Position numbers and translations under genes: made by a program
The notes under the pieces: model-generated
What the model was told of the DNA's origin: nothing
The model's database searches: none
Seen by the model: only the letters and a program-made list of their open reading frames with translations
Part shown: positions 5,783 through 39,111 of the stretch, in pieces
How the letters are laid out: every line of letters starts with the position of its first letter
How positions within the stretch are numbered: position 1 is the stretch's first letter
Assembly (NCBI GenBank): GCA_003695915.1
Contig: RFGF01000127.1
Coordinates: 1 to 64,000 of the forward strand
Source: Nitrospirota bacterium
GTDB lineage: Bacteria > Nitrospirota > Nitrospiria > Nitrospirales > UBA8639
DNA: 64,000 nt
Direction of reading: 5' to 3'

Positions 5783-6367
5783 TCAACCCAGCTGTTGTCC
5801 TTTTTTCGCTCGGACATTAAACCGATTCATCGCTTGTCCAACGCCTTCGTTCAGGATGCATTCCAACGCATCGACACCACGAGATAGGACCTGATCAACT
5901 AAAGGAAGTTCCTCGGAGTTAAAGGGAGACAGGACGTAATCGGCAGGATCGCCATGATCCGGTGGGCGTCCGATTCCGATCTTTACCCGAATAAATTCTT
6001 CGGTCTGAAGGGCGAGGAGCACTGACTGAACACCGTTATGGCCTCCCGCGCCCCCACGGGTTTTGATGCGAATTGTTCCTAGTTTCAGATCCAAATCATC
6101 GTGAACGACAATGAGCTCCTGCGAACGAATCCCGAAGCAATCCACCAGACGGCTGACGACCGGCCCCGTTTGATTCATCCAGGCATTGGGCAAAGCCAGC
6201 ACAACGACATTTGATCCCACATAGCCTGAACACTGCCGTGCAGAAGGGGTTTCCATCCATGAGAGTTGCCAGCGATCCGCCGCTCGTTCCAAGACCATCC
6301 TGCCAATATTGTGACGCGTCTTGGCATACTGCTGCCCCGGATTGCCCAACCCAACGATAAGATACAA
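5783..6367 (-). CDS. pth: Peptidyl-tRNA hydrolase
   Basis: Pth releases peptides from peptidyl-tRNA dropped by stalled ribosomes. The 194-residue protein keeps the active-site set: Asn9 in GLGNPG, His19 in TRHNIG, Asn65 in WMNQTG, Asp90 in VHDDLDL and Asn111 in GGAGGHNG. Translation appears to start at a TTG eight bases after the rplY stop; no ATG gives a family-like N-terminus. The gene is embedded in rplY-pth-ychF, an order conserved in many phyla. Confidence 0.96.
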   Translation of the reverse strand: MYLIVGLGNPGQQYAKTRHNIGRMVLERAADRWQLSWMETPSARQCSGYVGSNVVVLALPNAWMNQTGPVVSRLVDCFGIRSQELIVVHDDLDLKLGTIRIKTRGGAGGHNGVQSVLLALQTEEFIRVKIGIGRPPDHGDPADYVLSPFNSEELPLVDQVLSRGVDALECILNEGVGQAMNRFNVRAKKGQQLG

Positions 6368-6375
6368 GATGACGA

Positions 6376-7068
6376 TTACTTCGCTTCTTTCGACTCAGTG
6401 GAACCGGACGTTTCTCCTGCTTTGCTCTTCTGGGCAATCGCTTCCGTTTCACCTGGACTTACCCCGGCTTCCTCTCGTGTCAACAACGCTTCCAATTTCG
6501 CCTCGGAAATCTTTGATGCCACTGCGGCAATCTTGGCTTCTGGATCTTCCAATACCCTTACGCCACTCGGCACAGCCAAATCCTTCACCGCGATACCCTG
6601 GCCAACTTCCAGACCGGCCACATTCACTTCCAAATGATCGGGGATGTCTCCGGGCAGACACTCGACCAAGACCTCCCGAAGAGGATTTTGTAACACCCCC
6701 CCGGCCTTCACACCCACCGGCATGCCGCCTACCAAGGTGACAGGAATTTTCACGCGAAGCGGCTTGTCCATGGCGACTTCGAATAAGTCAATATGGAGGA
6801 TGGCCCCAGTAATAGGATCACGTTGATAATCCTGCAATACGGCATATCGTTCTTCGGTCTCATCGCCCCCCTTGATCCGCACAGCCAACAACCCCATATG
6901 TCCCCGCTTGGCTACAATCGCATCCCGCGCAAATTTTGGGGCTATGGCGAGAAGACGAGACTGACCCTGCCCATACAAAACCGCCGGGATCTTCCCATTT
7001 CGACGAGTGTGTCGTGCTCCACCTTTTCCGGCACGATGACGAGGTTCTACTTCAATTTCGAGTTTCAT
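6376..7068 (-). CDS. rplY: 50S ribosomal protein L25 (CTC form)
   Basis: A 230-residue bL25 of the long, two-domain general-stress (CTC) type that binds 5S rRNA. The N-terminal 5S-binding domain (RNGKIPAVLYGQGQ, then LQDYQRDPITGAILHIDLFEV) is followed by the beta-rich C-terminal domain and a Glu/Ala/Ser-rich tail. Start chosen at ATG 7068 because GGAGG sits eight bases upstream; an ATG at 7083 overlaps that Shine-Dalgarno. First gene of rplY-pth-ychF. The 298 bp upstream to prs contain no other gene I can support. Confidence 0.95.
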   Translation of the reverse strand: MKLEIEVEPRHRAGKGGARHTRRNGKIPAVLYGQGQSRLLAIAPKFARDAIVAKRGHMGLLAVRIKGGDETEERYAVLQDYQRDPITGAILHIDLFEVAMDKPLRVKIPVTLVGGMPVGVKAGGVLQNPLREVLVECLPGDIPDHLEVNVAGLEVGQGIAVKDLAVPSGVRVLEDPEAKIAAVASKISEAKLEALLTREEAGVSPGETEAIAQKSKAGETSGSTESKEAK

Positions 7069-7366
7069 GGTCGCATCCTCCATTCACACATGTCATTCAG
7101 CCAGATTTCAACAGTATCACTCGCCCCCTCGGCCTGCATCCTATTAGACCTCCTCTGACAAGCCTTCGCGGAAGCGAACCCCATTTTCACATCTCCTTCT
7201 TTCATTGCTCTTCATACTCTTCTCTTCAGAGCTTGAGCCTATCTTTCTCGCTCTTTACCACAAATCTGAGCGATCCTGCCAGTCAAAGGCCGAGCAAGAA
7301 AAGCAAAAGATGAGTTCGTTTTTTTAAAGAAGGTCAACCAGGCAGGAACTGCTGACTGGAACGCAC

Positions 7367-8314
7367 TTATACAAACAACGATGTCACCGATTCCTCACGA
7401 TGGATCCGAAGAATAGCTTCCCCGAGCAATGGAGCAACAGTCAGCGCACGTAATTTAGGACATTGCCGATCCCGTCCGTTCAACGGAATGGTGTTGGTGA
7501 CCACCACCTCTTCGAGACAGGAGGCTTGGAGCCGCTCCAACGCAGGACCAGACAGCACAGCGTGAGTACAGCCCGCCCACACACTCAATGCGCCATTATC
7601 CGCACAAACTTGCGCAGTTTGGACAATCGTGCCGGCTGTATCAATCATATCGTCCAAAATGACGGCATGCTTCCCGTTCACATCGCCGATCACGTTCATA
7701 ATTTGAGCCTTGTTTGCACCCTCTCGCCGCTTATCAATAATGGCCAAAGCCGCATCGAGCCGTTTCGCAAAAGCCCGCGCCCGCTCGACTCCACCCGCAT
7801 CTGGAGACACAATCACCACATTTTGCATATTGCGCTTTCGAAGATAGTCCAGCAAAACCGGCGTGGCGTACAGGTGATCGACAGGAATATTAAAAAAGCC
7901 CTGAATCGGGCCAGCATGAAGGTCCATGGTCAATACTCGTTGGGCCCCAGCCGTGGTCAGAAGATCGGCCACCAGTTTGGCGCTGATCGGCACCCGGGGT
8001 TGATCCTTCCGATCCTGACGAGCATAACCGTAATAGGGAATCACCGCCGTAATGCGGGACGCCGAGGATCGTTTCACCGCATCGATCATGATCAGCAATT
8101 CCATGATGGAAGTATTGACAGGTGGACAGCAAGACTGGATCAAGAAGACATCGGCCCCGCGAACGTTTTCTTCAATTCGAACCCGGATCTCCCCGTCGCT
8201 GAAGGTGGTGACCGTCGCTTGTCCCAGAGGCTGGCCGATATACTCTGCGATTTCTTCGGCCAAGGCACGATTGGAATTACCAGAAAAGAGTTTCAATGCT
8301 TTGCCTGTGATCAT
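7367..8314 (-). CDS. prs: Ribose-phosphate pyrophosphokinase (PRPP synthetase)
   Basis: Prs makes phosphoribosyl pyrophosphate from ribose 5-phosphate and ATP for nucleotide, His and Trp synthesis. The 315-residue protein is of class I size and shows the flexible catalytic loop ([11 protein letters not shown]), the metal/ATP motif [12 protein letters not shown] and the PRPP-binding loop DDMIDTAGT. It begins at an ATG about 55 nt after a well-placed promoter, with only a weak ribosome-binding site. Confidence 0.97.
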
Positions 8315-8372
8315 CGATTGCGAGCAATTCAGTTGGATTACACTACCTTTCAGACCTCGATGCGGGATTTCA

Positions 8373-8401
8373 AAAGTACTGAAGCTTTACAGTGTTGTCA
8401 A
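8373..8401 (-). promoter_or_regulatory. Putative sigma-70 promoter for prs
   Basis: On the minus strand a perfect -35 TTGACA (8396-8401) and a -10 TACTTT (8373-8378) are separated by exactly 17 bp. It lies between ispE and prs, with a predicted leader of about 50-55 nt to the prs ATG. This would uncouple prs from the pilus/ispE block upstream. Confidence 0.65.
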
Positions 8402-8441
8402 CCGACTCTCAAGAGCCTCATGATGAGCCATCCAGAACCTC

Positions 8442-9359
8442 TTAGTCTCTCATTTCTAGACCAGACGCTATCCATGGACGCGCGAGAGCCACATGCGCAG
8501 CTCTCCCTTTGAGTGCTCGAACAGCCTGCTCAGCACGCTCTCGTTCAGTGAACACTCCGAACACGGTCGAACCGCTTCCCGATAACAACGCCGCTTCTGC
8601 GCCCTCATCCAGCAAGGCGACCTTGATGCGTCGAAGGTCTGGATAATGGAACCATAGCGCAGATTCAAAATCGTTTTCCATAAGGCCTCGAAGCGCGTCC
8701 CATGTGACCTCAGATTGGCTCTGTAGCTCGGTCAATCGAGGAGACAACGGAGTCACCGCTGATCGAGCACGATCGAGTTGGAGATAGGCCCATCCGGTTT
8801 GAATAGAAAACGGCGGGGTCACCAGAACGACCCATCGAGGATTTTTCAATGTCAAGGGGTGGATCTCTTGCCCCCACCCCCGGACCACAGCGGAAGGACC
8901 TTTCACAAAAAACGGGACATCGCTTCCCAACCCGGCTGCCTCTCGGATCATCATCTCTTCGGACCAGCCGAGCTCCAGCAAGTTCACAAGTGCCATCATG
9001 ACCGTGGCTGCATCGCTACTGCCCCCTCCCAGTCCGGCACCGATCGGAATACGTTTCACGACATCGATTTGAACACCGACTTGTCGATCGGCTTTTTCGA
9101 TCACCATGTGAGCAGCGCGATAGGCGAGATTGCCTGCTCCTATGGGCAATCGCGGATCGTTGCATCGAAGGCTAATCCCTGATCCATTGGGGTCCACGCG
9201 GACGATGATCTCATCTGTTACGTCCACAGCCTGCATGAGGGACCAAATTTCATGATAACCGTTAGGCAGGCAATCCAAAACGCGCAGGACCAGATTGATT
9301 TTTGCTGGCGCGCGGCAGTGCAACGTTGTTCCATCGCGGACGGCTGACCGAAATGTCAT
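8442..9359 (-). CDS. ispE: 4-diphosphocytidyl-2-C-methyl-D-erythritol kinase
   Basis: IspE phosphorylates CDP-methylerythritol in the MEP pathway of isoprenoid synthesis, which feeds UppS and the mur pathway found elsewhere in this window. It is a 305-residue GHMP kinase: Lys20 in APAKINLVL, the ATP loop IPIGAGLGGGSSDAA at 104-118, and GSDVPFF with the catalytic Asp near 145. ispE-prs adjacency is frequent in bacteria. I looked for the tRNA-Gln that sometimes separates them and saw none. Confidence 0.96.
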   Translation of the reverse strand: MTFRSAVRDGTTLHCRAPAKINLVLRVLDCLPNGYHEIWSLMQAVDVTDEIIVRVDPNGSGISLRCNDPRLPIGAGNLAYRAAHMVIEKADRQVGVQIDVVKRIPIGAGLGGGSSDAATVMMALVNLLELGWSEEMMIREAAGLGSDVPFFVKGPSAVVRGWGQEIHPLTLKNPRWVVLVTPPFSIQTGWAYLQLDRARSAVTPLSPRLTELQSQSEVTWDALRGLMENDFESALWFHYPDLRRIKVALLDEGAEAALLSGSGSTVFGVFTERERAEQAVRALKGRAAHVALARPWIASGLEMRD

Positions 9360-9400
9360 CGTGAATGATGCCCTGTGACGTTGTCGTTTAAAACATCCCG

Positions 9401-10621
9401 TCAGCCAATGAGCGCCCCCATAGTAAAAATCGGCAAATACATCGCGACGACCAGCACGCCGACGCTCAGGCCGATCAGGAGAATCGCCGCAGGCTCCAGC
9501 AGAGCGGTCAGCAACCCGATCACGTGAGCCGTCTCTTGCTCATAAAGGGCCGCTACCTGTTCCAGCATCGCATCCAAGGAGCCGGTCGATTCTCCGACTG
9601 CGATCATGGGAGCGACAAGCGGAGGAAACACCCCAGATCGTGCCAAGGGATCCGCCAAAGCGGTCCCACGACTGACTTCCACTCGAACTGCGCGAACGGC
9701 CTGGGCCATGACCGCATTTCCCATATGAGCAGCCGTCAACCGTAACCCATCCAAAATCGGCACGCCGCTTCTCAGCAGCATGGCCAATGTCTCGGCAAAG
9801 TGCGAGGCCGCCGATTTTCGCAACAGATTACCAAAAAGCGGCAACCGTAAAAACAGGCTATCGCCGATCAGCCGACCCCGTGGTGTCCGATACCCCATCC
9901 ATCCTGCGACACAGGCGAGGATGGCCAACGCCACGACCCAGCCGCCATACATTCGGATGACCCGACTGCCGTCCAGAACGGCTTGCGTCAACCAAGGAAG
10001 CGTCCCACCCAACTCAGCGAACAGTTGACCGAACAACGGAACGAGCCAGATCATCAAACAGCACCATACTGCCCCCGCAAGACCGACCAATACCATTGGG
10101 TAGGCTAATGCGGAAAAGATGTTCTTTCTTCTCACAAGAGACCGTTCTTCATAAATCGCCAATCGCGTCAAGACCCGATCGAGTTGTCCAGTCACCTCGC
10201 CGATCTCCACCATATTGGTATACCAATCAGGGAAGATGCGAGGATGCCGTCGCAAGCTTGCACTCAACATAGTACCGTGTTTCACTTCCAGCCTGACGAC
10301 TTCCACTGTGCGTCGTAGCCCCAACGGCTCCGCCGAGGCAGCCAGCATGTTCAAGCTCATCAACAAAGGCACCCCGGCACTCAGCAACGCTGCCAATTGC
10401 CGCGTAAAGACGGCTCGATCACGCCGAGTAATCCGTGTGCCCGTCCCCCAAACCGTTGAAAATGACCATCTCGCTGACTGAATTGACTGCTCTCGCAGGT
10501 ATGTCACAGCGACACCGCGTTCGCGCAATAGTCGCAAAGCATCCTTGGGGTGTTGCGCCTCTACCTCGCCGCGATCAGGGCGTCCGGAACGATGCTTTCC
10601 GGCATAGAGGAAAACCGGCAT
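9401..10621 (-). CDS. pilC: Type II secretion/type IV pilus inner-membrane protein (PilC/GspF family)
   Basis: A 406-residue polytopic platform protein. It has two copies of the T2SSF domain: the first around residues 65-190 (FTRQLAALLSAGVPLLMSL), the second around 265-395 (FAETLAMLLRSGVPILDGL), with membrane segments near 170-190, 215-240 and at the C-terminus. PilC/GspF couples the cytoplasmic assembly ATPases to pilin extraction. It follows pilB- and pilT-like genes on the same strand. No pilin gene is in the window, so type IV pilus versus a type II secretion pseudopilus cannot be settled, although the PilT-like neighbour favours pili. Confidence 0.9.
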   Translation of the reverse strand: MPVFLYAGKHRSGRPDRGEVEAQHPKDALRLLRERGVAVTYLREQSIQSARWSFSTVWGTGTRITRRDRAVFTRQLAALLSAGVPLLMSLNMLAASAEPLGLRRTVEVVRLEVKHGTMLSASLRRHPRIFPDWYTNMVEIGEVTGQLDRVLTRLAIYEERSLVRRKNIFSALAYPMVLVGLAGAVWCCLMIWLVPLFGQLFAELGGTLPWLTQAVLDGSRVIRMYGGWVVALAILACVAGWMGYRTPRGRLIGDSLFLRLPLFGNLLRKSAASHFAETLAMLLRSGVPILDGLRLTAAHMGNAVMAQAVRAVRVEVSRGTALADPLARSGVFPPLVAPMIAVGESTGSLDAMLEQVAALYEQETAHVIGLLTALLEPAAILLIGLSVGVLVVAMYLPIFTMGALIG

Positions 10622-10700
10622 CCCGCAACTCCTTCATGCCTTCATCTTGCAGTGTTCGCCATTGTCCAGATCGGATAGCATTCCAGTCTCGTTCTCCGTT

Positions 10701-11822
10701 CTAACGTGTTTTGAACCGCGCCAAATTGGCCCGATAGGTATCATACGTGCCAGATCGACGGAGTAGTTCGGCTAACTCATCCGGGTGCGAAGAAGCGGCG
10801 AAGGCGTGCTGGGCGGCCACGATGCGCTGTTTGACCAAATCTGCCAAAGCTTGATTCATGGTTTGCATCCCATGCTTGGCCTGTCCCGTCTGCATCATCG
10901 AATAGATTTGATGGAGTTTGTCTTCCCGAACGAGATTGCGCACTGCTGGTGTCGGAACCAAAATTTCCAGCGCAAGCACCCGCCCCTTCCCTGACATTCG
11001 CGGCACCAGCCGCTGACAGAGGATCCCTTCAAGCGCTAGCGCCACTTGCGTCCGGGCATGGGCCTGTTGATGCGGAGGATAGGCAAGGATTACGCGGTGC
11101 AGCGTCTGAATCGCTGTATTCGTATGCATGGTAGCCAAAGTCAAGTGACCCGTTTCGGCGATCGTCATCGCTGTCTGGATCGCCTGGGCATCCCGCAACT
11201 CTCCGAGGCAGACGATATCGGGGTCCATACGCAGAAGCCCCTTCGCCAAGGCATCGATATCCGGGATATCGCTCCCGATTTCTCGTTGCGTAACCATTGC
11301 TTGCTTATGGGTGTGCTGAAACTCGATCGGATCCTCGATCGTTACAATATGCCCCGCGCGCTCGCGATTCATCGCATCCAGCAGCGCCGCCAATGTCGTG
11401 CTCTTGCCGCTCCCAGCCGGTCCGGTGACTAGGATCAGCCCCTGTGGTTTACGAACGAATTGCCGAACCACAGGCGGGAGCCCTAAAGCCTCGATCGTAG
11501 GAATCTCGCGCGGAATCGCTCGAATGGCCAAGGCCACGGATCCCCGCTGTATGTACACATGACAGCGAAACCGTCCAACCTCGGGCACACTGATCGAGCA
11601 ATCGACTTGAGCTTGGGAGTCAAGCGTCCGCTGTTGAGACTCGGTCAGGATTGCCGTCAGAAAACGACGGCAGTCTGCGGCCGTGACGATCGGGGCTGGG
11701 ATCGCATGCAATCGCCCATCCACTCGAATCCGCGGCGGACTGCCACCGACCAGATGAAGATCGGACCCGCCACGCTCTGCCAAGAGCGAGCAGAGCTGAT
11801 GAATCGTCCAGTCCGTCTCCAT
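10701..11822 (-). CDS. pilT: PilT-like twitching motility/retraction ATPase
   Basis: A 373-residue secretion ATPase of the PilT subfamily, thought to depolymerise type IV pili. After an N-terminal PAS-like lobe (SDLHLVGGSPPRIRVDGRL) come Walker A GPAGSGKSTT, the Asp box TIEDPIEF, Walker B with LGELRD and the His box AETGHLTLATMHT. The frame runs upstream into pilB; the ATG at 11822, with a GAGG about ten bases upstream and 18 bp after the pilB stop, gives the usual N-terminus. The long acidic AIRAGG insertion of some PilTs is absent, so a PilU-like role is possible. Confidence 0.9.
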   Translation of the reverse strand: METDWTIHQLCSLLAERGGSDLHLVGGSPPRIRVDGRLHAIPAPIVTAADCRRFLTAILTESQQRTLDSQAQVDCSISVPEVGRFRCHVYIQRGSVALAIRAIPREIPTIEALGLPPVVRQFVRKPQGLILVTGPAGSGKSTTLAALLDAMNRERAGHIVTIEDPIEFQHTHKQAMVTQREIGSDIPDIDALAKGLLRMDPDIVCLGELRDAQAIQTAMTIAETGHLTLATMHTNTAIQTLHRVILAYPPHQQAHARTQVALALEGILCQRLVPRMSGKGRVLALEILVPTPAVRNLVREDKLHQIYSMMQTGQAKHGMQTMNQALADLVKQRIVAAQHAFAASSHPDELAELLRRSGTYDTYRANLARFKTR

Positions 11823-11839
11823 GGTCTCGACTGCCTCAA

Positions 11840-13669
11840 TTATGCTGCCGTAACTGCCAGCACCTCTCCCACTGTCGTGAACCCGCTTGCCACCTTGCGC
11901 CATCCATTTTGCCGAAGCGATGCCATGCCTGCGGCACTCGCGCAAGTCCGCAAGGCCTTGGCCGAAGCCCGCCCGAGAATGTGATCGTGCAAGGCATCGG
12001 ACATGGGCAGCACCTCAAAAATCGCAAGCCGTCCCTTGAATCCCGTCCCATGACAGTGTGGACATCCACGGCCTCTCGCGGGAGTGACGGATGCTGCCTG
12101 CTCGGGAGGACACCCCAACGAAATCAGTCGCGTCTGCGGGATAGGATCAGGTTCCCGGCAATGTCGGCAGATTTTCCGCACCAAGCGCTGGGCGATAATG
12201 ACAGAGACCGATGAGGCCACCAAAAACGGCTCAATGCCCATGTCGAGCAGCCGGGCAATCGTCCCTGGCGCATCGCTGGTATGGAGCGTGGACAGGACGC
12301 GATGACCGGTCAACGCCGCTTGCACCGCAATATCGGCGGTTGCCCGATCTCGGATTTCTCCGACCATGATGATGTCGGGATCTTGTCGAAGCAGCGACTT
12401 CAAGCCCACGGCAAACGTCAGCCCGATATCTTCCTTAATTTGCAACTGCGTGACCCCGTGCAAATGATATTCGACCGGATCTTCCACCGTAACGATATTC
12501 ACGTGCGGCGTGTTGAGACAGTGCAGTGCCGAATAGAGCGTCGTCGTTTTCCCACTCCCGGTCGGACCGGTCACCAGCATCATCCCATGCGGGTGGTTCA
12601 ACGCCGTCAACACCGTGTTCAAATCATGCGGTTCAAAGCCGAGTTGCCGAAGATCCAATGAAAGGCGAGAACGATCCAGCAGGCGCAGAACTGCCTTTTC
12701 TCCATAGAGGCAGGGAAGGATGGAAACCCGTATGTCGAACCCTTCTCTAGCCTCCAAGGTAACGTGGATTCGGCCATCTTGCGGGAGCCGGCGTTCAGCA
12801 ATGTCCAAACTGGCCATGATTTTGAGCCGCGCCAGGATCGAATGGCGGAGGCGACTGGGAAGATGCAGTACGGTTCGTAAGACGCCATCCAATCGGAACC
12901 GGACTCGTACGCAAGAATCCAAGGGTTCCACATGAATATCGCTCGCTCCCATCGTCACGGCCTGACGAAGCAGCCCATGGACGAGATTGACCACCGGAGC
13001 TGCATCATCTTCCACTACCTCGTATCCGCTTCCTACCTCGTCATCCGGCGTGAGCGAAGCCATGGCTTGCCGCATCCAGACCTGCAACTGTTTCAATTCA
13101 GCCGATTCGACCGATTCCTGATCGGACATGCCCCATTCCTCATGGCTTCGCTCCTCAAGGCGTGGCAACCCACGATGTGCGGATTCATCGAATGTCGAGT
13201 CCCTTTGGCGGATAGACAGGGTTTCTCGATCGGGGCAATCGGTCCACTGATGAAGGATCGCTCGAATCCGCGATTCGAGTGCCACATGTGGCACGATATG
13301 CAAGCCTGTGTGAAACTGGAGTTCATCGAACAGCGCTACATCTGATGGATCGACGACGGCTAAGGCCAGGCGCGACCCCATTCGACGAAAGGGCACCACG
13401 AATTTTTTGTGAGCTGTCTCGCGCGGGATCAATGGAAGCAGCGTTGGGTCGAACTGCGAGAGATCGGCAATCGCCACGCCGTAATGTTGACTCAGGAATT
13501 GTAACAACACGGCCTCCGAGACGGCGCCCATTCCCACGAGGATGCTCCCGATCCGCTCTCCGCAGGCTTGCTGACGAGCCAGGGCTTGCTGACGTTGCTC
13601 TTCGGTGATCAAGCCGGCCTCGAGAAGCAATTGCCCAAGGCGCTCGTGGCGCAGCGTCCGCTCCATCAT
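11840..13669 (-). CDS. pilB: PilB/GspE-type assembly ATPase
   Basis: A 609-residue pilus/secretion assembly ATPase. The N-terminal third (LGQLLLEAGLITEEQ..., a repeated GxLLLExGxI-like module) matches the MshEN domain, which in relatives binds cyclic di-GMP. The ATPase core follows: SDIHVEP, Walker A GPTGSGKTTT, TVEDPVEY, Walker B IIMVGEIRD and the His box TGHRVLSTLHT. A CRHC...CPHC zinc tetrad sits near residue 500. Its first ATG overlaps the pgsA stop by one base, so translation is probably coupled to pgsA. pilT follows after 17 bp. Confidence 0.93.
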   Translation of the reverse strand: MMERTLRHERLGQLLLEAGLITEEQRQQALARQQACGERIGSILVGMGAVSEAVLLQFLSQHYGVAIADLSQFDPTLLPLIPRETAHKKFVVPFRRMGSRLALAVVDPSDVALFDELQFHTGLHIVPHVALESRIRAILHQWTDCPDRETLSIRQRDSTFDESAHRGLPRLEERSHEEWGMSDQESVESAELKQLQVWMRQAMASLTPDDEVGSGYEVVEDDAAPVVNLVHGLLRQAVTMGASDIHVEPLDSCVRVRFRLDGVLRTVLHLPSRLRHSILARLKIMASLDIAERRLPQDGRIHVTLEAREGFDIRVSILPCLYGEKAVLRLLDRSRLSLDLRQLGFEPHDLNTVLTALNHPHGMMLVTGPTGSGKTTTLYSALHCLNTPHVNIVTVEDPVEYHLHGVTQLQIKEDIGLTFAVGLKSLLRQDPDIIMVGEIRDRATADIAVQAALTGHRVLSTLHTSDAPGTIARLLDMGIEPFLVASSVSVIIAQRLVRKICRHCREPDPIPQTRLISLGCPPEQAASVTPARGRGCPHCHGTGFKGRLAIFEVLPMSDALHDHILGRASAKALRTCASAAGMASLRQNGWRKVASGFTTVGEVLAVTAA

Positions 13670-14247
13670 CAGCGCCGATCCTCCGCATGGCCGTTTAATT
13701 GCACAATGCCTCGGTATAAGTAATGCAGGCCCGACAATGCCGTCAGGCTGGCCATCGCCATCAATAACGGCGGAAGAACGGCCACTTCGATATAATTAGC
13801 TGCGCGCAACAATACCATCACCACATAGACAATTTGGGTGAACGTCGTGGCTTTGCCCAACACTGTCGGCGAGACATCGACTGGCGAATCAGTGACGTGC
13901 GCCACGAGCGTGCCGGCCAACAAAATCGCATCTCGGCTGACCACCAGAATCACCGCCCACACCGGAATCAGGTGCAAGATCGCCAGGGACAAAAACGCGG
14001 ACATCAAGAGCAGTTTGTCGGCGAGAGGATCAAGATACGCGCCGATGAGAGTTCGCTGGTTGGCCATGCGAGCAATCGTGCCATCCAGCCCGTCGGTCAC
14101 CGCAGCGATCAGCAGGGTAATCAATGCGGCGTTGTACTGCCCATACACCAGAAACCCAACGAACACCGGCACCAGCAAGATGCGCAACACTGTGAGACTG
14201 TTGGGGACATTGAGGGGGAGCACTGCCGGGACCGAGACACGGATCAT
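13669..14247 (-). CDS. pgsA: CDP-diacylglycerol-glycerol-3-phosphate 3-phosphatidyltransferase
   Basis: A 192-residue integral-membrane CDP-alcohol phosphatidyltransferase making phosphatidylglycerol phosphate. The invariant motif D-G-x2-D-G-x2-A-R-x8-G-x3-D-x3-D is complete: Asp52, Asp55, Arg60, Gly69, Asp73 and Asp77. Several hydrophobic helices surround it. The NSLTVLRILLVP N-terminus is typical of PgsA rather than of phosphatidylserine synthase. First gene of the pgsA-pilB-pilT-pilC block. Confidence 0.93.
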   Translation of the reverse strand: MIRVSVPAVLPLNVPNSLTVLRILLVPVFVGFLVYGQYNAALITLLIAAVTDGLDGTIARMANQRTLIGAYLDPLADKLLLMSAFLSLAILHLIPVWAVILVVSRDAILLAGTLVAHVTDSPVDVSPTVLGKATTFTQIVYVVMVLLRAANYIEVAVLPPLLMAMASLTALSGLHYLYRGIVQLNGHAEDRR

Positions 14248-19089: not shown

Positions 19090-19995
19090 ATGATCGACGG
19101 TCGGACGTATTATCAAATCCTCGGGGTTCCCGAAGACGCACTGCTTTCGGAAATCCAGCGCGCGTGGCGGAAAGCCGTCAAGGCTCACCATGAAGACGTG
19201 GTTCCGGCTCACGAGCGACAAGCTGCCAAGGAACGAATGTTCCAGATCAACGAGGCTTATGAGGTTCTCAGTCATCCCGACAAGCGGGCAGAGTATGATA
19301 ATGCCCACATGCTCAATGGCGGATCGACCATTGAACTCGTCCGGCGGCGCGTGCGAAGAACCAAGGAACTCTTGAAGCAGGAACGGTCGCGTCTTACCCG
19401 GGACGATCTCACCCTAATCGAATCCGTCATCGATTATCTGGATCCCAACACTCGCACGACCTGTTTCCGCTGGTTGACGGAGCTGCTCCACGAACGGCCA
19501 GACCTGGCTCGATTCATTGTGCCCCTGGCCTTTGACGAACAACTCCACGGCGCTCCGACATTGCTTTTCGATGCTCTGCTCGAAACCGCTGCCTATGCCA
19601 TCACCTGGGACCGGATTTATCTGTATGCCGAAGACATTCGGACGCTGGAAGGCAAAGAACACCAGGAAAGCAATTACAACCAACTGGCCCGCATCTTATG
19701 CCATCGCACGGATTTAGCGGAGCATTTCGTGTATCCTGCCTTTCAAGAGCAGGCCTCCGGCTGCGAAAGCAATTTGCTGCTGACCTTGCTCCGTGTCGCG
19801 CCGCAAGCGATCACACAAACAAGTTTCGACCATTACGTGGATACGGTCTACGAGATGCGATGGGTCGTCTGCCATCAACTCCGCAGCTACAATGAACAGG
19901 CCATCGGCTGGATTCTCAAAGCCAGACCCGATCTCGTGAGAAAACCTGAAAACAAGAAAGCGCCTCAAGAGCTCCCCTTCCCTCTCCGCTCGTGA
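19090..19995 (+). CDS. J-domain-like protein with altered HPD motif
   Basis: A 301-residue protein. Residues 6-70 follow the J-domain layout: TYYQILGVPEDALLSEIQRAWRKAVK (helices I-II), a loop, then the FQINEAYEVLSHPDKRAEYD helix III-IV end. The obligatory HPD tripeptide of the loop is replaced: residues 33-38 read HHEDVV where YHPDKN is expected. Without the Pro, stimulation of DnaK is doubtful. Residues 75-290 are helical, without zinc fingers or membrane segments, and match nothing I know. It is followed after 374 bp by the giant membrane ATPase on the same strand, so a functional pairing is possible but unproven. Confidence 0.8.
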   Translation: MIDGRTYYQILGVPEDALLSEIQRAWRKAVKAHHEDVVPAHERQAAKERMFQINEAYEVLSHPDKRAEYDNAHMLNGGSTIELVRRRVRRTKELLKQERSRLTRDDLTLIESVIDYLDPNTRTTCFRWLTELLHERPDLARFIVPLAFDEQLHGAPTLLFDALLETAAYAITWDRIYLYAEDIRTLEGKEHQESNYNQLARILCHRTDLAEHFVYPAFQEQASGCESNLLLTLLRVAPQAITQTSFDHYVDTVYEMRWVVCHQLRSYNEQAIGWILKARPDLVRKPENKKAPQELPFPLRS

Positions 19996-20369: not shown

Positions 20370-23300
20370 ATGGCTCGTGACGTCCAACCGTCGTCCGCCA
20401 TTTCCTCGCGAAGACAACCAAAGGGGACACGTCTTGTCGTTCTCGGCATCGTCCTACTGAGCGCTGCATTGGGAAGCCTCTACGCCATGTATGTCTTGAA
20501 TCAGATGAATTATCTGGCTGCGCGAAATTTCCGGCTTCTCTCGGCTTGGAGCCAGCAACTCTCTGCAACCTTGGCCAACTATCAACGTGTGTTTACCTCT
20601 GCACACAAAGCCTGCTTTCAATTCAACTTTCTGGCTTTTGGCCCTCCAACCCAAGCGCCTCCGCTGTCACCGTCGTCCTCATTGCCCAACACTGACCCGA
20701 TGAGCGATTGTCTTGATCGAATCAGCGCCGCGCTCCCGTCCTCCCTTCATCCAGTGAAAGACAGGGAACCCGAGGAACCGCTCCCTCCGCATGCATATTG
20801 GATCGACATTGCCCCGATCTCCTCGCCGACCGACCCCAACGTTGTGCTGACCTATATATCCGCTATGCCACCAGGCCGACCAAGCCCTCCGTCCCAACCA
20901 TCCCGATCGCTTGCTCGACCCGAAGACGGGGTGTGTCGCATTCTTTCGTCATCGTCAGGATCGCGAACCCTGTTTTGCCAAGCGGCGCTTTCTCTGAGGC
21001 ATCTCTCAGATCAATTAGGCATCGGCCAAGAAGAGGTATTCGATGAAATCGTGGTGGCAGATCAAATGGGCACAGTCCACTACCAGCGCGGGGATTCTCG
21101 GTTTCAGTTCGTCAGTCTTCGCCCATGGATTCGACCGGCATCGGCTTCCGAGTCAGACCACGAGTCAGCCCCATCGGGAAGGGGAGCCGGTAACCATGCT
21201 GGATCCCTTGCTGAGCAGCTCCCGCTGCACCAAGAAGTGGACGTGGGTGGGATGACGTATCAGGTGTTTGCGCAACCGATTGTGCTTCCCTCCTCCGAGG
21301 ATGGGAGGCACGTCGAGACGCGCCATTCACAGCATTTCATCATCGCCGGGTTTGTCAAATCGGATCGTTTCACCCAACAGGCATTTGCCATTCCGTATAC
21401 CGTGCTCGTCCTCATTGCGTTTCTCGTACTCGTCCTCGCCGTGAGCCTCCCGTTTCTCAAACTCCAAACCATGGGGGCCAACGATAGAATCCGACAGGCC
21501 GATGTCATCACGTCTATGGGAGCCTGTTTGCTCAGCACTGCCCTGCTCGCGTTTTTCCTGCTGGATGCCTTTGCCTATTGGCACATTAAAGATCAGAAGG
21601 ATGAGGAATTGACCACGTTCGCGCACGAACTGGCTCGAAACTTATCCGTCGAGATTGGGCAAGCCGCTCAATGGATGACCACGGCGAATCAACGGATTGC
21701 GATGGCCCATCAACACCTGTGCGAGCATGCCACACTCGCGATCGACGACCGATCGATAGACGATCAATTCTTCGACCGTCGGCCGCTTCGTGCCCATCTG
21801 CTGCAAGATGCTTCATCGCCCTTCTCGGCCTTTCTGCACACCCCCTATCCCGACCCCATCATGATCTTCTGGGTCGATGCCGAAGGCGATCAGCGCGCGA
21901 AATGGACGACGCGCATTCGTCCCACTCCACTCATCAATGTCGCCGATCGCGAATATGTCAGACAGGCGAAGAACCATGAACTCTGGAATATCCAGGGTGC
22001 CGATTTATGGATTCAACCGATCTATTCCAAAACCATGGGCGAGTTTAGCGTGATGATCTCGACCAAAACGGCCACACCCTGTCCGGCATTCGACCAGACG
22101 TATCCCGTCACGGCCGTGCAAATTCGTCTGTCATCCGTCATGGAGCCCATCGTCCCGCCAGGGTTCGGCTTTGCGGTCCTCAGAGACGAGGACGGCACCG
22201 TCCTGTTTCATTCGAAGAAGTGGCGTGCGCTGCGAGAAAATTTCCTTGAAGAAACCGATCACAATCCCGAACTCGAATCACTCGTTTTCAGCCGAACGAG
22301 CGGCACCGTGAGCGGGCGTTATTGGGGCATCGGCCATCGTTTCCACGTCATGCCGCTGCCCGATCTCCCATGGACACTCGTAACCTTCATGACCAAGGAC
22401 GCGCTCCGCACCTTCAATTTTGAAGTGCTGGTCGTCTCCACCTCGTTGTTCCTTTGTTACGGGACGATCTTTCTGGTGCTGTTTCTTTTAATCGGTTTGA
22501 TTTGGGGGGCGATCAAACAAGGCCGAACCGACTGGATGTGGCCGCGTGCCGACTACCGGGAGCGTTACCATCTCATTATCCTTATCAACGCCCTTCTCAG
22601 CATCGGGTTCGGAGTTCTGTTCATCTTGGAACCGTCAGATTGGAGCGGCGCCCTCTTTCTCTCCATGGTCATTCCTCTTTTTGCAACCACCGCCATGTAC
22701 GTGATCTTAACGGCTCCACGAAATCCGTTCAGTGGCCTGGTTCCAGCCTTGATGGGCGACTATCGCCGGAGTTATGCGGTCATGGTCGCGACGATGATGA
22801 TCGTGTTCGCCTTCATTCCCACTCTCGCCTTATTCACGATTGTCCACGATGCCGAAATAGGGCTCTTAGTCAAGCATGGCCAACTCGGTCTCGCCCGTGC
22901 CTTGGTCGAACGGGAGCAGCGCCTTCGCCACTTTTATCGACACATCGCCATCGGTGTGGACCAAGATGGCCACGGCCCAGATTGGCAAAGATTGCTCGAT
23001 AGGAGACGAGGGCTCGACGACTCGCCCACCGTGGGATCCTCTCCACAGGCGCCGCAAGATATCTATGCGGGGTTTTTGTTCCAAGAGGATTCGCGCAGAC
23101 GAACGGTCATTCAGAGACGAGAACGCGAACGAGCCCCCCTTCCCGAATCAACTTTGGATCCGGTTGCCCGCGCGGCGCATCAGCTCTGGTTCAAAGCTCG
23201 TGCCTTGTTCAATCCCCCATCACGCGAGACGGCGGGGATTATTTTGCATCGTCCCCACGACCCTCCGTTTCACTGGATCACACCCGCTTCGAATTCCGTC

Positions 23301-24524
23301 TCGTTGACCTACGGGGATTATCGTATCGTCTCTCCCGTTCCGACGCTGATTCCCTCGTTGCTCCGGGATCTGGCCGAATGGCACAAGTGGCCGATGAAAA
23401 CGATATTTCTGACCCTACTCGCCGGCCTTGTTATCCTCGCACTTCTCGGCTCTGCGTCGTGGTTTGTGCTGTACCGTTTGCCCAGGTTCGTCGCCGATAA
23501 CGTCTTTCTCCTGTCATTCGATACACCGGTAGAGCGTGAAGCATGGCAGTGTTTGACCGTCCGCTCCGCTCAGGATCGGCCACGCCACCTTTTGGTGATC
23601 GGTCCTCCAGGATCGGGGAAGTCTCGATTCGTCAAGGCACAGGGCTGGCGTTCCATTGATTTCCGAGCGATCAAAGATGATCCCTATTGGCTTTTCCGGG
23701 ATCCGGTGGCGAGCGTACTCCAGCACACTGCGCCCCAAACTATTGCGATCGATCATTTCGAATATGGCACCGGCTCGTACCACTGTGATCTCAAAAAACT
23801 TGCGTTGCTCGAAGCGGCCCTGGCCACAGGCCATCGCCTGTGCATCTTGTCTAGCATCGACCCCTTTGCGTCGATCGGTCTGAACCCTCGTCGCGACGAA
23901 CCGGCCACTCTTGTAGACACGAACAAACAGGACGATCTGGCGCATAGGATGGCTCAACTGTTTCAATCGTTCACGGTCGTGTATTTCGCCTTTCAATCCT
24001 GGGGATATGGACGGAACGTTATGGGAGCAGAGAATGGACCATGGCGCCAGGCATTGACTCGACACGCTCAGGCAACGGTAGAGAAAGAGCAAGAACAGCT
24101 CCTCCGCCCGTATTATCATGCGATTTGGACGTCGTGCACAGATGACGAAAAGCTTGCGCTGTTTTACTTGGCCAAAGATCGCTTTCTCCATGCCGAAAAT
24201 CCTGCGCTCCGAAGGCTCCTCTGCAAAGGATTGGCTGTTCTGCAACCGGACTTGCAACTCATGAGCGCTAGTTTTCGTCGATTCGTGATGGCCACCGCCA
24301 ATGATTCCCAGATTGTCCAATTAGAGCAGCGATCTCCTGGAAGTTTCTGGCAGACCGTGAGTTGGCCGCTCGGCATTGCGCTTTTATTGCTCGCCGCGTT
24401 CTTGTTCGTGACCCAAGAGCAAGTCCGGTCCGCAGCCGGAGCATCGTTGAGTTTGCTCCCGGCTATCCTCCCGGTTGCGATCAAGCTCGTCGGGACGCTG
24501 CAAAAACCAAAGGCCGGCGGTTAG
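20370..24524 (+). CDS. Giant membrane protein: Cache-like sensor segments plus P-loop ATPase
   Basis: 1384 residues, no named family recognised. Predicted layout: TM1 21-43; extracytoplasmic segment 44-335; TM2-3 about 338-362 and 378-404; a second extracytoplasmic segment 405-683 resembling a dCache domain (FWVDAEGDQRAKW, then INVADREYVRQAK and a second lobe VLRDEDGTVLFHS); TM4-7 between 685 and 825; a third outside segment 826-1008; TM8 1009-1036. The cytoplasmic part is a P-loop ATPase with Walker A GPPGSGKS at 1078-1085, Walker B-like TIAIDHFE (Asp1128, Glu1131) and a sensor-like ILSSIDPF. Two hydrophobic segments at 1332-1378 close the protein. No kinase, cyclase or GGDEF output is seen, so the ATPase itself seems to be the output. 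Start codon support is weak. Confidence 0.8.
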   Translation: MARDVQPSSAISSRRQPKGTRLVVLGIVLLSAALGSLYAMYVLNQMNYLAARNFRLLSAWSQQLSATLANYQRVFTSAHKACFQFNFLAFGPPTQAPPLSPSSSLPNTDPMSDCLDRISAALPSSLHPVKDREPEEPLPPHAYWIDIAPISSPTDPNVVLTYISAMPPGRPSPPSQPSRSLARPEDGVCRILSSSSGSRTLFCQAALSLRHLSDQLGIGQEEVFDEIVVADQMGTVHYQRGDSRFQFVSLRPWIRPASASESDHESAPSGRGAGNHAGSLAEQLPLHQEVDVGGMTYQVFAQPIVLPSSEDGRHVETRHSQHFIIAGFVKSDRFTQQAFAIPYTVLVLIAFLVLVLAVSLPFLKLQTMGANDRIRQADVITSMGACLLSTALLAFFLLDAFAYWHIKDQKDEELTTFAHELARNLSVEIGQAAQWMTTANQRIAMAHQHLCEHATLAIDDRSIDDQFFDRRPLRAHLLQDASSPFSAFLHTPYPDPIMIFWVDAEGDQRAKWTTRIRPTPLINVADREYVRQAKNHELWNIQGADLWIQPIYSKTMGEFSVMISTKTATPCPAFDQTYPVTAVQIRLSSVMEPIVPPGFGFAVLRDEDGTVLFHSKKWRALRENFLEETDHNPELESLVFSRTSGTVSGRYWGIGHRFHVMPLPDLPWTLVTFMTKDALRTFNFEVLVVSTSLFLCYGTIFLVLFLLIGLIWGAIKQGRTDWMWPRADYRERYHLIILINALLSIGFGVLFILEPSDWSGALFLSMVIPLFATTAMYVILTAPRNPFSGLVPALMGDYRRSYAVMVATMMIVFAFIPTLALFTIVHDAEIGLLVKHGQLGLARALVEREQRLRHFYRHIAIGVDQDGHGPDWQRLLDRRRGLDDSPTVGSSPQAPQDIYAGFLFQEDSRRRTVIQRRERERAPLPESTLDPVARAAHQLWFKARALFNPPSRETAGIILHRPHDPPFHWITPASNSVSLTYGDYRIVSPVPTLIPSLLRDLAEWHKWPMKTIFLTLLAGLVILALLGSASWFVLYRLPRFVADNVFLLSFDTPVEREAWQCLTVRSAQDRPRHLLVIGPPGSGKSRFVKAQGWRSIDFRAIKDDPYWLFRDPVASVLQHTAPQTIAIDHFEYGTGSYHCDLKKLALLEAALATGHRLCILSSIDPFASIGLNPRRDEPATLVDTNKQDDLAHRMAQLFQSFTVVYFAFQSWGYGRNVMGAENGPWRQALTRHAQATVEKEQEQLLRPYYHAIWTSCTDDEKLALFYLAKDRFLHAENPALRRLLCKGLAVLQPDLQLMSASFRRFVMATANDSQIVQLEQRSPGSFWQTVSWPLGIALLLLAAFLFVTQEQVRSAAGASLSLLPAILPVAIKLVGTLQKPKAGG

Positions 24525-24784: not shown

Positions 24785-25483
24785 ATGAGGCCTCACCATC
24801 GACCAGAACGCCATTATGCCGCACGAATCGGTTGGTTACGCGCGGCCGTCTTGGGAGCCAACGACGGCATCGTCTCCACCGCAAGCTTGCTCGTGGGGGT
24901 CGCAGCGGCAGACGTATCCCACCACACCATTCTCATTGCCGGAATAGCCGGCCTCGTTGCCGGAGCCATGTCCATGGCCGCCGGAGAATATATCTCCGTG
25001 AGTTCCCAAGCCGACACAGTCAAAGCGGATTTGGAACGGGAACAGCAAGAATTGGCCACCGACGAGGCGTTCGAGCGCAAGGAGCTAGCTAGAATTTATG
25101 TGCAGCGAGGACTGGATCCTGACCTGGCCGAACAAGTGGCCGCCCAGCTCATGGCGCATGATGCCTTAGGAGCCCATGCTCGTGACGAATTGGGATTGAC
25201 CGACACGCAAACGGCCAGGCCAATACAAGCGGCCATCACTTCCGCCGCGACATTTACGATCGGAGCGGCGATGCCGTTGGTCGTCGCCATGCTCACCCCG
25301 CTGTCTCACGTGCTGATGGCCGTGGGGATCAGCTCGCTTCTGTGTTTAGCCTTGTTGGGTGCAGTGGCGGCTTGGGCTGGCGGGGCCAATGTGCTGGTGG
25401 GAACGATTCGCGTCACGGTGTGGGGAACATTGGCCATGATCGTCACGGCTGCAGTTGGGGCCATCATCGGTCCCACGGTATAG
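24785..25483 (+). CDS. VIT1/CCC1-family iron/manganese transporter
   Basis: A 232-residue membrane protein of the VIT1/CCC1 family, which moves Fe2+ or Mn2+ out of the cytosol. The N-terminus RAAVLGANDGIVSTASLLVGVA is the family signature, followed by GLVAGAMSMAAGEYISVSSQ (TM2) and a charged cytoplasmic metal-binding-type helix rich in Glu (DLEREQQELATDEAFERKELARIY). Three more hydrophobic segments complete the five-helix topology. Situated 260 bp after the giant ATPase; metal specificity cannot be told. Confidence 0.92.
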   Translation: MRPHHRPERHYAARIGWLRAAVLGANDGIVSTASLLVGVAAADVSHHTILIAGIAGLVAGAMSMAAGEYISVSSQADTVKADLEREQQELATDEAFERKELARIYVQRGLDPDLAEQVAAQLMAHDALGAHARDELGLTDTQTARPIQAAITSAATFTIGAAMPLVVAMLTPLSHVLMAVGISSLLCLALLGAVAAWAGGANVLVGTIRVTVWGTLAMIVTAAVGAIIGPTV

Positions 25484-36822: not shown

Positions 36823-37899
36823 TCATCGTTTTCCGAGCAATTGCCGACATTCCCGCACAACCCGTTGCGTCGCATCGGAGCGCCGACGCGCCAGACTGCA
36901 GGCAGCCATGCGCTGAAGTCGCGCAGGATCCCGCATCAATGTCTCGAGTACTTTCGCGAGTCGTTGGCCGGTCAACTCGGCTTGCGGAACGACGATCGCC
37001 GCGCCGGCAGCTTCGACTTCTCGAGCGTTCTTTTCTTGATGGCCATGAGCCGCATGCGGGAAAGGAATCAAAATGGCCGGTCTGCCATATGCAGCCAACT
37101 CCGCAAGCGTCCCCGCCCCGGATCGAGCGACCACCACATCCGCCTCACGCAGAACCGTTGGCATATCCGAAACAAACGGCACGACCCGAACCGAGACGTC
37201 CAAATCGTGATAAGCCTGTTGAACACGTATATAGTCCTCTTCGCCTGTTTGGTGAATTACGTCGACCGTTTCTCGAATGATGCGAGATCCGCGCATGACC
37301 GCTATCATGGCTTCGTTGATGGCCCGGGCCCCCTGACTCCCTCCGCAAACGAATAGCGTCTTCACACGTTCCGGAAGAGCAGGAGGCTCTTCGAGAAACG
37401 CCCGGCGCAATGGTGTCCCGACGACGCGGATCTTCGCGCGTGGAAAATATGTTTGAGCTCCTTCAAACGCCAAAAAAATTCGATGCACGAGGGGGGACAA
37501 CAAGCGATTCGCCAACCCCGGCATCGCATTGGGCTCGACGAGCACACGAGCAATCCCCAATAACCAAGCCGCTACCACGACCGGCGGACTGACATATCCC
37601 CCTGTCCCGATGACCAACTCCGCGCGAGCGCGCCGAAGCATCCGAATCGCTTGGCCGATCGCCCGTGGAAGCCGAGCCAGCGCCGCCACGGCTCGACCGC
37701 CTCGTCCCAGGACACCCTGAACGTCAAGAGATTCGACGACGAACGAACTGTTTCCCAAGATCATCGTTTCCAAACGCTTGCCCGTTCCGACGAATGTCAC
37801 GGCTGTTTCAGGATCCTGGCGACGGAATTCTTCAGCGAGCGCCAATGCCGGATACAGATGGCCGCCCGTTCCTCCTGCAGCAATGACGACGCTCATCAT
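36823..37899 (-). CDS. murG: UDP-GlcNAc-undecaprenyl-pyrophosphoryl-MurNAc-pentapeptide GlcNAc transferase
   Basis: A 358-residue GT28 enzyme turning lipid I into lipid II on the inner leaflet. The N-terminal glycine loop AAGGTGGHLYPALALAEEF, GTGGYVSPPVVVAA and the C-terminal donor site SRSGAGT-type block (VARSGAGTLAELAAYG) are intact. Start: tandem ATGs at 37899/37896, the first overlapping the ftsW stop. The same frame is open for more than a kilobase upstream over ftsW, but that part is a shadow with no resemblance to any protein. Confidence 0.97.
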   Translation of the reverse strand: MMSVVIAAGGTGGHLYPALALAEEFRRQDPETAVTFVGTGKRLETMILGNSSFVVESLDVQGVLGRGGRAVAALARLPRAIGQAIRMLRRARAELVIGTGGYVSPPVVVAAWLLGIARVLVEPNAMPGLANRLLSPLVHRIFLAFEGAQTYFPRAKIRVVGTPLRRAFLEEPPALPERVKTLFVCGGSQGARAINEAMIAVMRGSRIIRETVDVIHQTGEEDYIRVQQAYHDLDVSVRVVPFVSDMPTVLREADVVVARSGAGTLAELAAYGRPAILIPFPHAAHGHQEKNAREVEAAGAAIVVPQAELTGQRLAKVLETLMRDPARLQRMAACSLARRRSDATQRVVRECRQLLGKR

Positions 37900-39107
37900 G
37901 GACGTCCCCTCATCCGACCGCAAGAATGGGAAGGACATTCTTTGGCGATACTGAGGAGAATACCCAAAGCCAACAGCGACATGACCGCCGAGGACCCTCC
38001 ATAACTGACTAATGGCAAAGGCAATCCTTTGGTCGGCAACAGCCCACAAACCACCCCGACATTGATCAAGGCCTGCCCACCGATCAAGAGCGTAATGCCT
38101 TGTGCGAGCAAGCGCCCGAATGCATCCGACGTCTGCACCGCCACACTCAAGCCTTTCGCCACCAGCACGCCGTAAAGGGCGAGCAACGCGGCCGTGCCGA
38201 GCAGCCCCAGCTCTTCTCCGATCAAGGCAAAGACAAAATCCGTATGCCCTTCCGGCAAATAAAACAACTTTTGCTTGCCATGTCCCAACCCGACACCTAT
38301 CCACCCACCATGTCCAAACGCATACAAGGACTGCGTCAATTGATATCCAGCGCCCCTGGCATCGGCAAACGGATCGAGGAACGTCACGATGCGTTCCCAC
38401 CGTTCCGGCGACAGCCGTATTAAAAGCCCCAAAGACAGGACCATGGCGCCTCCCACGACCATCAGACATCGAATCGGCGCGCCCGCCAAATACACCATTC
38501 CAAGGAACACGAGGCCGATCAACGCCGCATTGCCGTAGTCGGGCTCTGCAACCATGAGCGCTGCCATGATCCCGACCACGCAAGCTGGACGCAGCACGAT
38601 TTCCCGCCATCCGGCTTGAGACAGGTCGAGCTTGTGGAGATAGGCGGCCAGATACACAACGAGCGACACCTTGGCCAGCTCCGACGGCTGCACAGATAAC
38701 CCTGCCATCGTGAGCCATCGGTGAGCACCGTTGATTTTTCTGCCCGCGAACAAGACCGCGATCAACAACCCCATCGAGATCATCACCAACGCGGGTGTCC
38801 ACGATTTCAATACACGATAGTCCTGGCGGGCCATGAACAGGAGTGCCACAAATCCTACACTCAGCCAAAGCGCCTGCCGTTGCAAATAATGGGTCGGCTC
38901 GCGATACCGGTTCTCCGCCAAGACCCCACTGGTGCTGAACACCATCACGAGCCCCGTCAGGGCTAAGGCGACCGTTACGCTCAGAATGACCGGATCGAGC
39001 CTGACACGCTCCCATCGAAACGGCCGATCGAACAACGTCCCCAGGATGGAGGTCGGTTTTGACCGATTCCGCTGCCCCCATCGCATCGTATCCATCCTGC
39101 TTTTCAT
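37896..39107 (-). CDS. ftsW: Peptidoglycan glycosyltransferase FtsW
   Basis: A 403-residue SEDS-family membrane enzyme that polymerises septal glycan together with FtsI. About ten hydrophobic helices are visible. Signatures: GRKINGAHRWL, the catalytic-Asp loop region with AEPDYGNAALI, FLDPFADARGAGYQ and GLLPTKGLPLPLVSYGGSS near the end. The start ATG lies four bases after the murD stop; inner ATGs at 39095 and 39086 are alternatives. Its stop overlaps the murG start. Confidence 0.96.
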   Translation of the reverse strand: MKSRMDTMRWGQRNRSKPTSILGTLFDRPFRWERVRLDPVILSVTVALALTGLVMVFSTSGVLAENRYREPTHYLQRQALWLSVGFVALLFMARQDYRVLKSWTPALVMISMGLLIAVLFAGRKINGAHRWLTMAGLSVQPSELAKVSLVVYLAAYLHKLDLSQAGWREIVLRPACVVGIMAALMVAEPDYGNAALIGLVFLGMVYLAGAPIRCLMVVGGAMVLSLGLLIRLSPERWERIVTFLDPFADARGAGYQLTQSLYAFGHGGWIGVGLGHGKQKLFYLPEGHTDFVFALIGEELGLLGTAALLALYGVLVAKGLSVAVQTSDAFGRLLAQGITLLIGGQALINVGVVCGLLPTKGLPLPLVSYGGSSAVMSLLALGILLSIAKECPSHSCGRMRGRP

Positions 39108-39111
39108 AGCG

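Follow-up and report, generated by a model that had tools for sequence, protein, structure and literature searches.

A Nitrospirales Family of Predicted Membrane Receptors with dCache-Like Sensors and an Optional AAA+/STAND-Like NTPase

We describe here a gene at positions 20370 to 24524 of a 64,000-nucleotide stretch of Nitrospirota bacterium DNA (contig RFGF01000127.1, assembly GCA_003695915.1; the window), which encodes a large membrane protein with a cytoplasmic P-loop nucleoside triphosphatase (NTPase, here also called the ATPase). Comparison with its relatives in the order Nitrospirales indicates, from sequence, that the conserved core of the family is a set of dCache sensors joined to a C-terminal tail of a winged helix and a membrane hairpin and that the ATPase is optional. 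The most telling feature is that the NTPase has been split in one clade and lost in another. Among bacterial extracellular sensors, Cache domains form the largest group. The outputs listed in the 2016 survey that first delimited the Cache families are histidine kinases, chemoreceptors, GGDEF proteins, adenylate cyclases, phosphatases, Ser/Thr kinases, channels, and transcription factors, with no ATPase named (PMC4822843). Our literature searches found nothing on a Cache domain combined with a STAND or P-loop NTPase. The parts are known and the arrangement appears to be new, in line with an earlier note, made from the window sequence by itself, which did not recognize the architecture.

Relatives with 25 to 38% protein identity occur in about 30 other genomes, so the gene is not a chance open reading frame (ORF). 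A whole-protein search gave matches in 30 of 236 Nitrospirales genomes, and a family-level search gave matches in 19 of 49. A profile of the tail, run over 396 Nitrospirota genomes, returned family members and a single chance match (in genome G067). No family match outside Nitrospirales was found on the plasmids, phages, or IMG/VR records searched, a scan of genome contigs with two strict peptide patterns hit Nitrospirales only, and the relatives in named records are all Nitrospira or Nitrospirales. Two weak matches considered as possible members proved, by eye, to be MgtE-type magnesium transporters and were rejected.

Four architectures were distinguished. In state A (8 genomes, including that of the window), the protein is a single chain with an intact Walker A motif. 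In state B (8 genomes), the ATPase is divided shortly after Walker B over two adjacent genes; the large protein ends about 30 to 100 residues past Walker B, and the small protein (about 250 amino acids [aa]) carries the winged helix and hairpin and in most cases starts with the sensor-1 strand (TTIFSNVDPF). The two genes have distinct reading frames with a gap of a few to about 80 bp between them, except in G214, where they overlap; in several genomes, the start of the second gene is preceded by a Shine-Dalgarno-like sequence. State C (1 genome) has a decayed P-loop with remnants of Walker B and sensor-1, and in state D (10 genomes of the Nitrospira family), the ATPase core is deleted while the winged helix and hairpin remain. 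Left out of these classes were contig-end pieces (those in G133, G229, and G244 and the second fragment of G233) and the remnant in G121. Walker A is intact in 16/16 genes of states A and B and in 0/12 of states C and D, where it is decayed or deleted. The earlier note had made its proposal depend on conservation of the Walker residues in homologues; Walker A is conserved in all of the former genes and in none of the latter.

Several copies deserve separate mention. The state B copy of G209 has a stop between the eighth transmembrane (TM) segment and the ATPase as well as a broken C-terminal frame, so it may be decayed or misassembled. In the split copy of G214 (locus L048, 7682-11817, minus strand), the two frames share 157 bp and there is no sensor-1 strand; a frameshift or a programmed shift may account for the overlap. 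Locus L068 (G336) carries tandem ATPase-less copies of equal length and the same match statistics (6052-9615 and 10512-14075), which stem either from recent duplication or from a repeat in the assembly. An 84-aa frame in locus L101 (G121; 4780-5034, minus strand) retains nothing of the family protein except its membrane hairpin (TQEEYR motif) and is likely a remnant of a deleted gene.

A maximum-likelihood tree was built on the dCache/TM part of the proteins. The split form makes up one clade (support 100/100) and the ATPase-less form another (87/87), and the intact single-chain genes fall on both sides. This placement suggests that the single chain is probably ancestral and gave rise to the other forms by one split and one loss. 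States C and D also appear to share additional TM segments where the eighth would be, which agrees with a common loss. Long branches lead to the window gene and the decayed gene, so their exact places in the tree are unsure. The ratio of nonsynonymous to synonymous substitution rates (dN/dS), taken over entire genes, is 0.10 to 0.28 for the single-chain and large genes and reaches 0.39 in one small gene. Purifying selection continues to act on the state D genes.

The earlier note had cast the ATPase as the output module, with ligand binding outside the cell gating an ATP-driven process at the membrane; the ATPase-less relatives would then have changed function. Walker A and B are intact and invariant across genes that have diverged to about 25 to 30% identity, and the ATPase region has a dN/dS of 0.11 to 0.39, both as such an output would predict. 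However, the 10-genome clade retains everything but the ATPase under purifying selection, and the tail is the better conserved of the cytoplasmic parts. Supply of the ATPase in trans was considered for state D and rejected, since a search of seven of these genomes for an ATPase relative elsewhere returned generic P-loop matches only. Because the sensor stays under selection after the ATPase is gone, ATPase output is not supported as a rule, and we regard it as improbable. The same search recovered a 269-aa P-loop frame present in 17 copies in G320, which is probably an IstB-like helper of an insertion sequence.

The window gene is a single copy in its genome (3.7 Mb, 99% complete). It starts with ATG, and hydropathy places exactly ten TM segments in its product (residues 19-46, 334-371, 377-406, 684-720, 732-757, 758-784, 800-834, 1007-1038, 1326-1354, and 1355-1378), three large extracytoplasmic segments (44-335, 405-683, and about 836-1008), and a cytoplasmic region at 1039-1325. 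The earlier description of a 1,384-residue protein with about ten TM segments, three large external segments, a cytoplasmic Walker A/B ATPase, and a C-terminal membrane hairpin was thus sound. The features are as follows.

20370-24524, plus strand: whole gene, 1,384 aa with ten TM segments, from the ORF call, hydropathy, and relatives.
20499-21374, plus strand: extracytoplasmic segment 1 (residues 44-335), predicted to be dCache-like from the AlphaFold2 secondary-structure order and a weak profile-profile match.
21387-21569, plus strand: TM2-TM3 hairpin between the two sensor segments, from hydropathy.
21582-22418, plus strand: extracytoplasmic segment 2 (residues 405-683), predicted dCache domain, from Pfam, AlphaFold2, PDB fold matches, and conservation.
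22419-22871, plus strand: TM4-TM7 core (residues 684-834), from hydropathy.
22875-23393, plus strand: extracytoplasmic segment 3 (residues 836-1008), without a recognizable fold, poorly conserved, and modeled at low confidence.
23388-23483, plus strand: TM8 (residues 1007-1038), from hydropathy; ATPase-less relatives apparently have two to three TM segments here.
23547-23987, plus strand: cytoplasmic P-loop NTPase domain (residues about 1060-1206), predicted AAA+/STAND-like fold, from Pfam, AlphaFold2, and PDB fold matches.
23601-23624, plus strand: Walker A, GPPGSGKS (residues 1078-1085), from sequence and alignment.
23742-23762, plus strand: Walker B-like IAIDHFE (residues 1125-1131), from sequence and alignment.
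23838-23867, plus strand: sensor-1-like strand LCILSSIDPF (residues 1157-1166), near the small-partner N terminus in most split relatives.
24141-24305, plus strand: predicted winged-helix domain (residues 1258-1312), from AlphaFold2 and invariant residues.
24345-24503, plus strand: C-terminal membrane hairpin (residues 1326-1378), from hydropathy and AlphaFold2, with invariant T1348-Q1349.

Segment 2, already read as dCache-like in the earlier note, is the most conserved stretch of the N-terminal half. It matches dCache_1 (PF02743) weakly in Pfam (E value, 2.6e-5), scoring 24.3 bits against a curated cutoff of 45 bits, which the relative in locus L066 (33.4 bits) does not reach either; subthreshold matches occur in 10 of 26 relatives (best E value, 1.9e-8). 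Residues 1 to 1010 were modeled with AlphaFold2 from a 26-sequence alignment (mean predicted local distance difference test [pLDDT] score, 71; predicted template-modeling score [pTM], 0.73), and a PDB fold search with the model returned dCache domains first (3LIF, PctA, McpH, KinD, and Mlp24; E values down to 1e-6). As in the dCache superfamily, the modeled segment has a long N-terminal helix and two PAS-like lobes and lies between TM3 and TM4. Twelve positions are invariant (W501, G506, R527, Y529, H614, R622, E623, E628, T629, Y651, G653, and W668). Compared by eye with the dCache_1AA motif (R126, W128/Y129, and a terminal Asp in PctA numbering), R527 and Y529 are invariant, V530 stands at the second aromatic position, and the terminal Asp is replaced by E or Q. 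At the sequence level, the PDB yielded no useful match to the window protein, the sensor profile, or the tail profile.

Segment 1 matched no Pfam family. Its helix and strand order in the AlphaFold2 model parallels that of the middle dCache, and the proximal lobes of the two segments match each other weakly in a profile-profile comparison (probability, 27; E value, 0.0007). We predict from the model that segment 1 is also dCache-like, a feature absent from the earlier note; the tandem arrangement is a prediction because sequence support for a duplication is weak.

The cytoplasmic part (residues 1000 to 1384) was modeled separately (pLDDT, 77) and shows a P-loop core that includes the Walker A, Walker B, and sensor-1 strands, followed by a winged helix and then by two membrane helices. 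PDB fold matches of the core were IstB, DnaC, DnaA, ORC, RFC, and the NB-ARC domain of Roq1, and among 26 members, weak family matches were obtained to AAA_16 (in 6), NACHT (in 2), and nSTAND3 (in 1; E value, 2.3e-5). The modeled fold is therefore best described as AAA+/STAND-like. G1078, G1081, G1083, K1084, D1097, D1128, and H1129 are invariant in 14/14 aligned sequences of states A and B. Pfam and NCBIfam searches found no histidine kinase, methyl-accepting chemotaxis protein (MCP), GGDEF, cyclase, or phosphatase output domain, as the earlier note had said of kinases, cyclases, and chemotaxis domains.

The winged helix (residues 1258 to 1312), which the earlier note had missed, lies between the ATPase and the hairpin and is modeled at high confidence as helices with a two-strand wing. 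A winged helix behind the NTPase core is a feature of STAND proteins; by eye, no clear GxP motif precedes it. W1253, L1264, P1278, L1283, F1302, and R1303, in or near it, are invariant in states A and B, as is the T1348-Q1349 pair of the hairpin. Every complete relative, the ATPase-less ones included, keeps this tail, and the dCache/TM part is likewise always kept. Over the last 140 residues, in single-chain genes and the small gene of the split form, dN/dS is 0.02 to 0.15, against 0.10 to 0.39 over entire genes.

We tentatively favor, with slightly less than even confidence, a one-protein transmembrane receptor in which the NTPase is a switch and the winged-helix/hairpin tail is the output. 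Two tandem dCache-like domains would detect a small molecule on the outer side of the cytoplasmic membrane, and the TM core would relay a conformational change to the predicted cytoplasmic tail of AAA+/STAND-like NTPase, winged helix, and TM hairpin. As in STAND proteins, the NTPase would most likely act as a nucleotide-state switch or amplifier, here governing how the winged-helix/hairpin tail is placed or assembled. We take this tail, and not the ATPase, as the output because every complete relative retains the tail. In the split clade, the NTPase would be formed by two polypeptides, presumably assembled in trans, and in the ATPase-less clade, coupling from sensor to tail would have to run without it. 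Our confidence in the architecture, itself partly predicted, and in its evolution is much higher than in this mechanism.

Several observations weigh against the receptor-switch reading. The STAND fold match is weak (TM-score of about 0.25 over the query; best local E value, 3e-4). The STAND Walker B rule is hhhhD[small]h[DE], and IAIDHFE fits it only partly, with the invariant H1129 (14/14) in the small-residue place. A catalytic acidic residue is not obvious in the predicted NTPase. No conserved neighbor helps to name the output among about 30 loci. Conservation of the tail indicates that it matters and is not proof of output; it might instead be a structural anchor.

The membrane part itself could do the work. 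The protein would then be a ligand-gated channel or transporter formed by its 10 to 12 TM segments, with the dCache sensing substrate and the NTPase and winged helix regulating gating. The many TM segments, some conserved positions in TM4-TM7, and the hydrophobic C-terminal hairpin with its invariant T-Q pair are consistent with this idea; however, no transporter or channel family was matched in Pfam or NCBIfam, and the listed PDB fold matches are to dCache domains. We consider it unlikely, on a par with ATPase output.

STAND proteins with membrane effectors have a similar order of NTPase, winged helix, and TM hairpin. This resemblance, the Roq1 NB-ARC among the fold matches, and the patchy presence among genomes would fit a STAND-type conflict (abortive-infection) protein whose hairpin, once triggered, permeabilizes the membrane. 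The sensors, however, are on the outside, the side on which dCache domains respond to small solutes, and clade D retains the gene without the NTPase. PADLOC matches to known antiphage systems were short or weak and did not extend beyond the P-loop (mad8 and IetA), no defense neighbors are shared among about 30 loci, and the family is absent from the phages and plasmids searched. We hold a conflict role to be quite improbable.

Clustering of neighbors across about 30 loci found no gene conserved beside the family beyond local synteny, which by eye comprises trp-type genes in one genus and hemG-type genes in Nitrospira; neighbors differ between lineages. In the window, a J-domain gene upstream (19090-19995) and a VIT1 gene downstream (24785-25483) adjoin the receptor gene on the same strand; the earlier note had said that consistent co-occurrence with either would support a system. 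A tblastn search of 30 relative loci totaling 451 kb found no homologue of either, and the intergenic gaps are 374 and 260 bp. Such joint working now seems very remote. The J-domain protein (301 aa, plus strand) has a C-terminal part of about 230 aa with only a subthreshold glucosamine-isomerase-like match. The remainder of the window is ordinary chromosomal DNA that contains a dcw-type cell-wall cluster. There, a 752-aa ORF (36823-39410, minus strand) has MurG at its C terminus and no family match over its first 390 or so residues; it is probably not a fusion, and its N-terminal part appears to be an out-of-frame reading over a neighboring cell-wall cluster gene.

The favored receptor shares features with three known groups. 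The dCache_1 receptors (PctA, McpH, Mlp24/37, KinD, and DctB), which gave the first PDB fold matches, likewise place an extracytoplasmic double Cache between TM helices. Their outputs are chemotaxis, kinase, GGDEF, or cyclase modules, whereas here two dCache-like domains and a third extracytoplasmic segment would feed a winged-helix/hairpin tail, with or without a P-loop NTPase ahead of it. STAND NTPases (NB-ARC, NACHT, and nSTAND3) also have a P-loop NTPase followed by a winged helix, have a Walker B of the form hhhDxh[DE] that IAIDHFE resembles in part, and are represented here by the Roq1 NB-ARC match and the one nSTAND3 match. In contrast to them, the present NTPase sits in a ten-TM receptor, has its N-terminal sensor outside the cell and no repeat sensor, has a His where they usually have a small residue after the Walker B Asp, and can be split or lost. 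The AAA+ initiator/helicase-loader clade (IstB, DnaC, DnaA, ORC, and RFC) provides the best fold matches of the NTPase core, but the present protein is membrane bound, lacks a DNA-replication context, and has a winged helix and then a TM hairpin.

A broader proposal is that these proteins form an outward-facing class of receptors resembling nucleotide-binding leucine-rich repeat (NLR) proteins, in which tandem dCache domains set the state of a STAND-like NTPase that switches a winged-helix/membrane-hairpin effector, with the switch split in one clade and dispensed with in another within a single order. We offer this as speculation that is clearly more likely wrong than right. The family would add a P-loop NTPase/winged-helix/membrane-hairpin tail to the range of Cache outputs. 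With the NTPase naturally present in three conditions (intact, split in trans, and lost), the family offers a ready-made experiment on the contribution of an NTPase to a transmembrane receptor, in an order that includes the nitrite-oxidizing Nitrospira, whose environmental sensing is little known.

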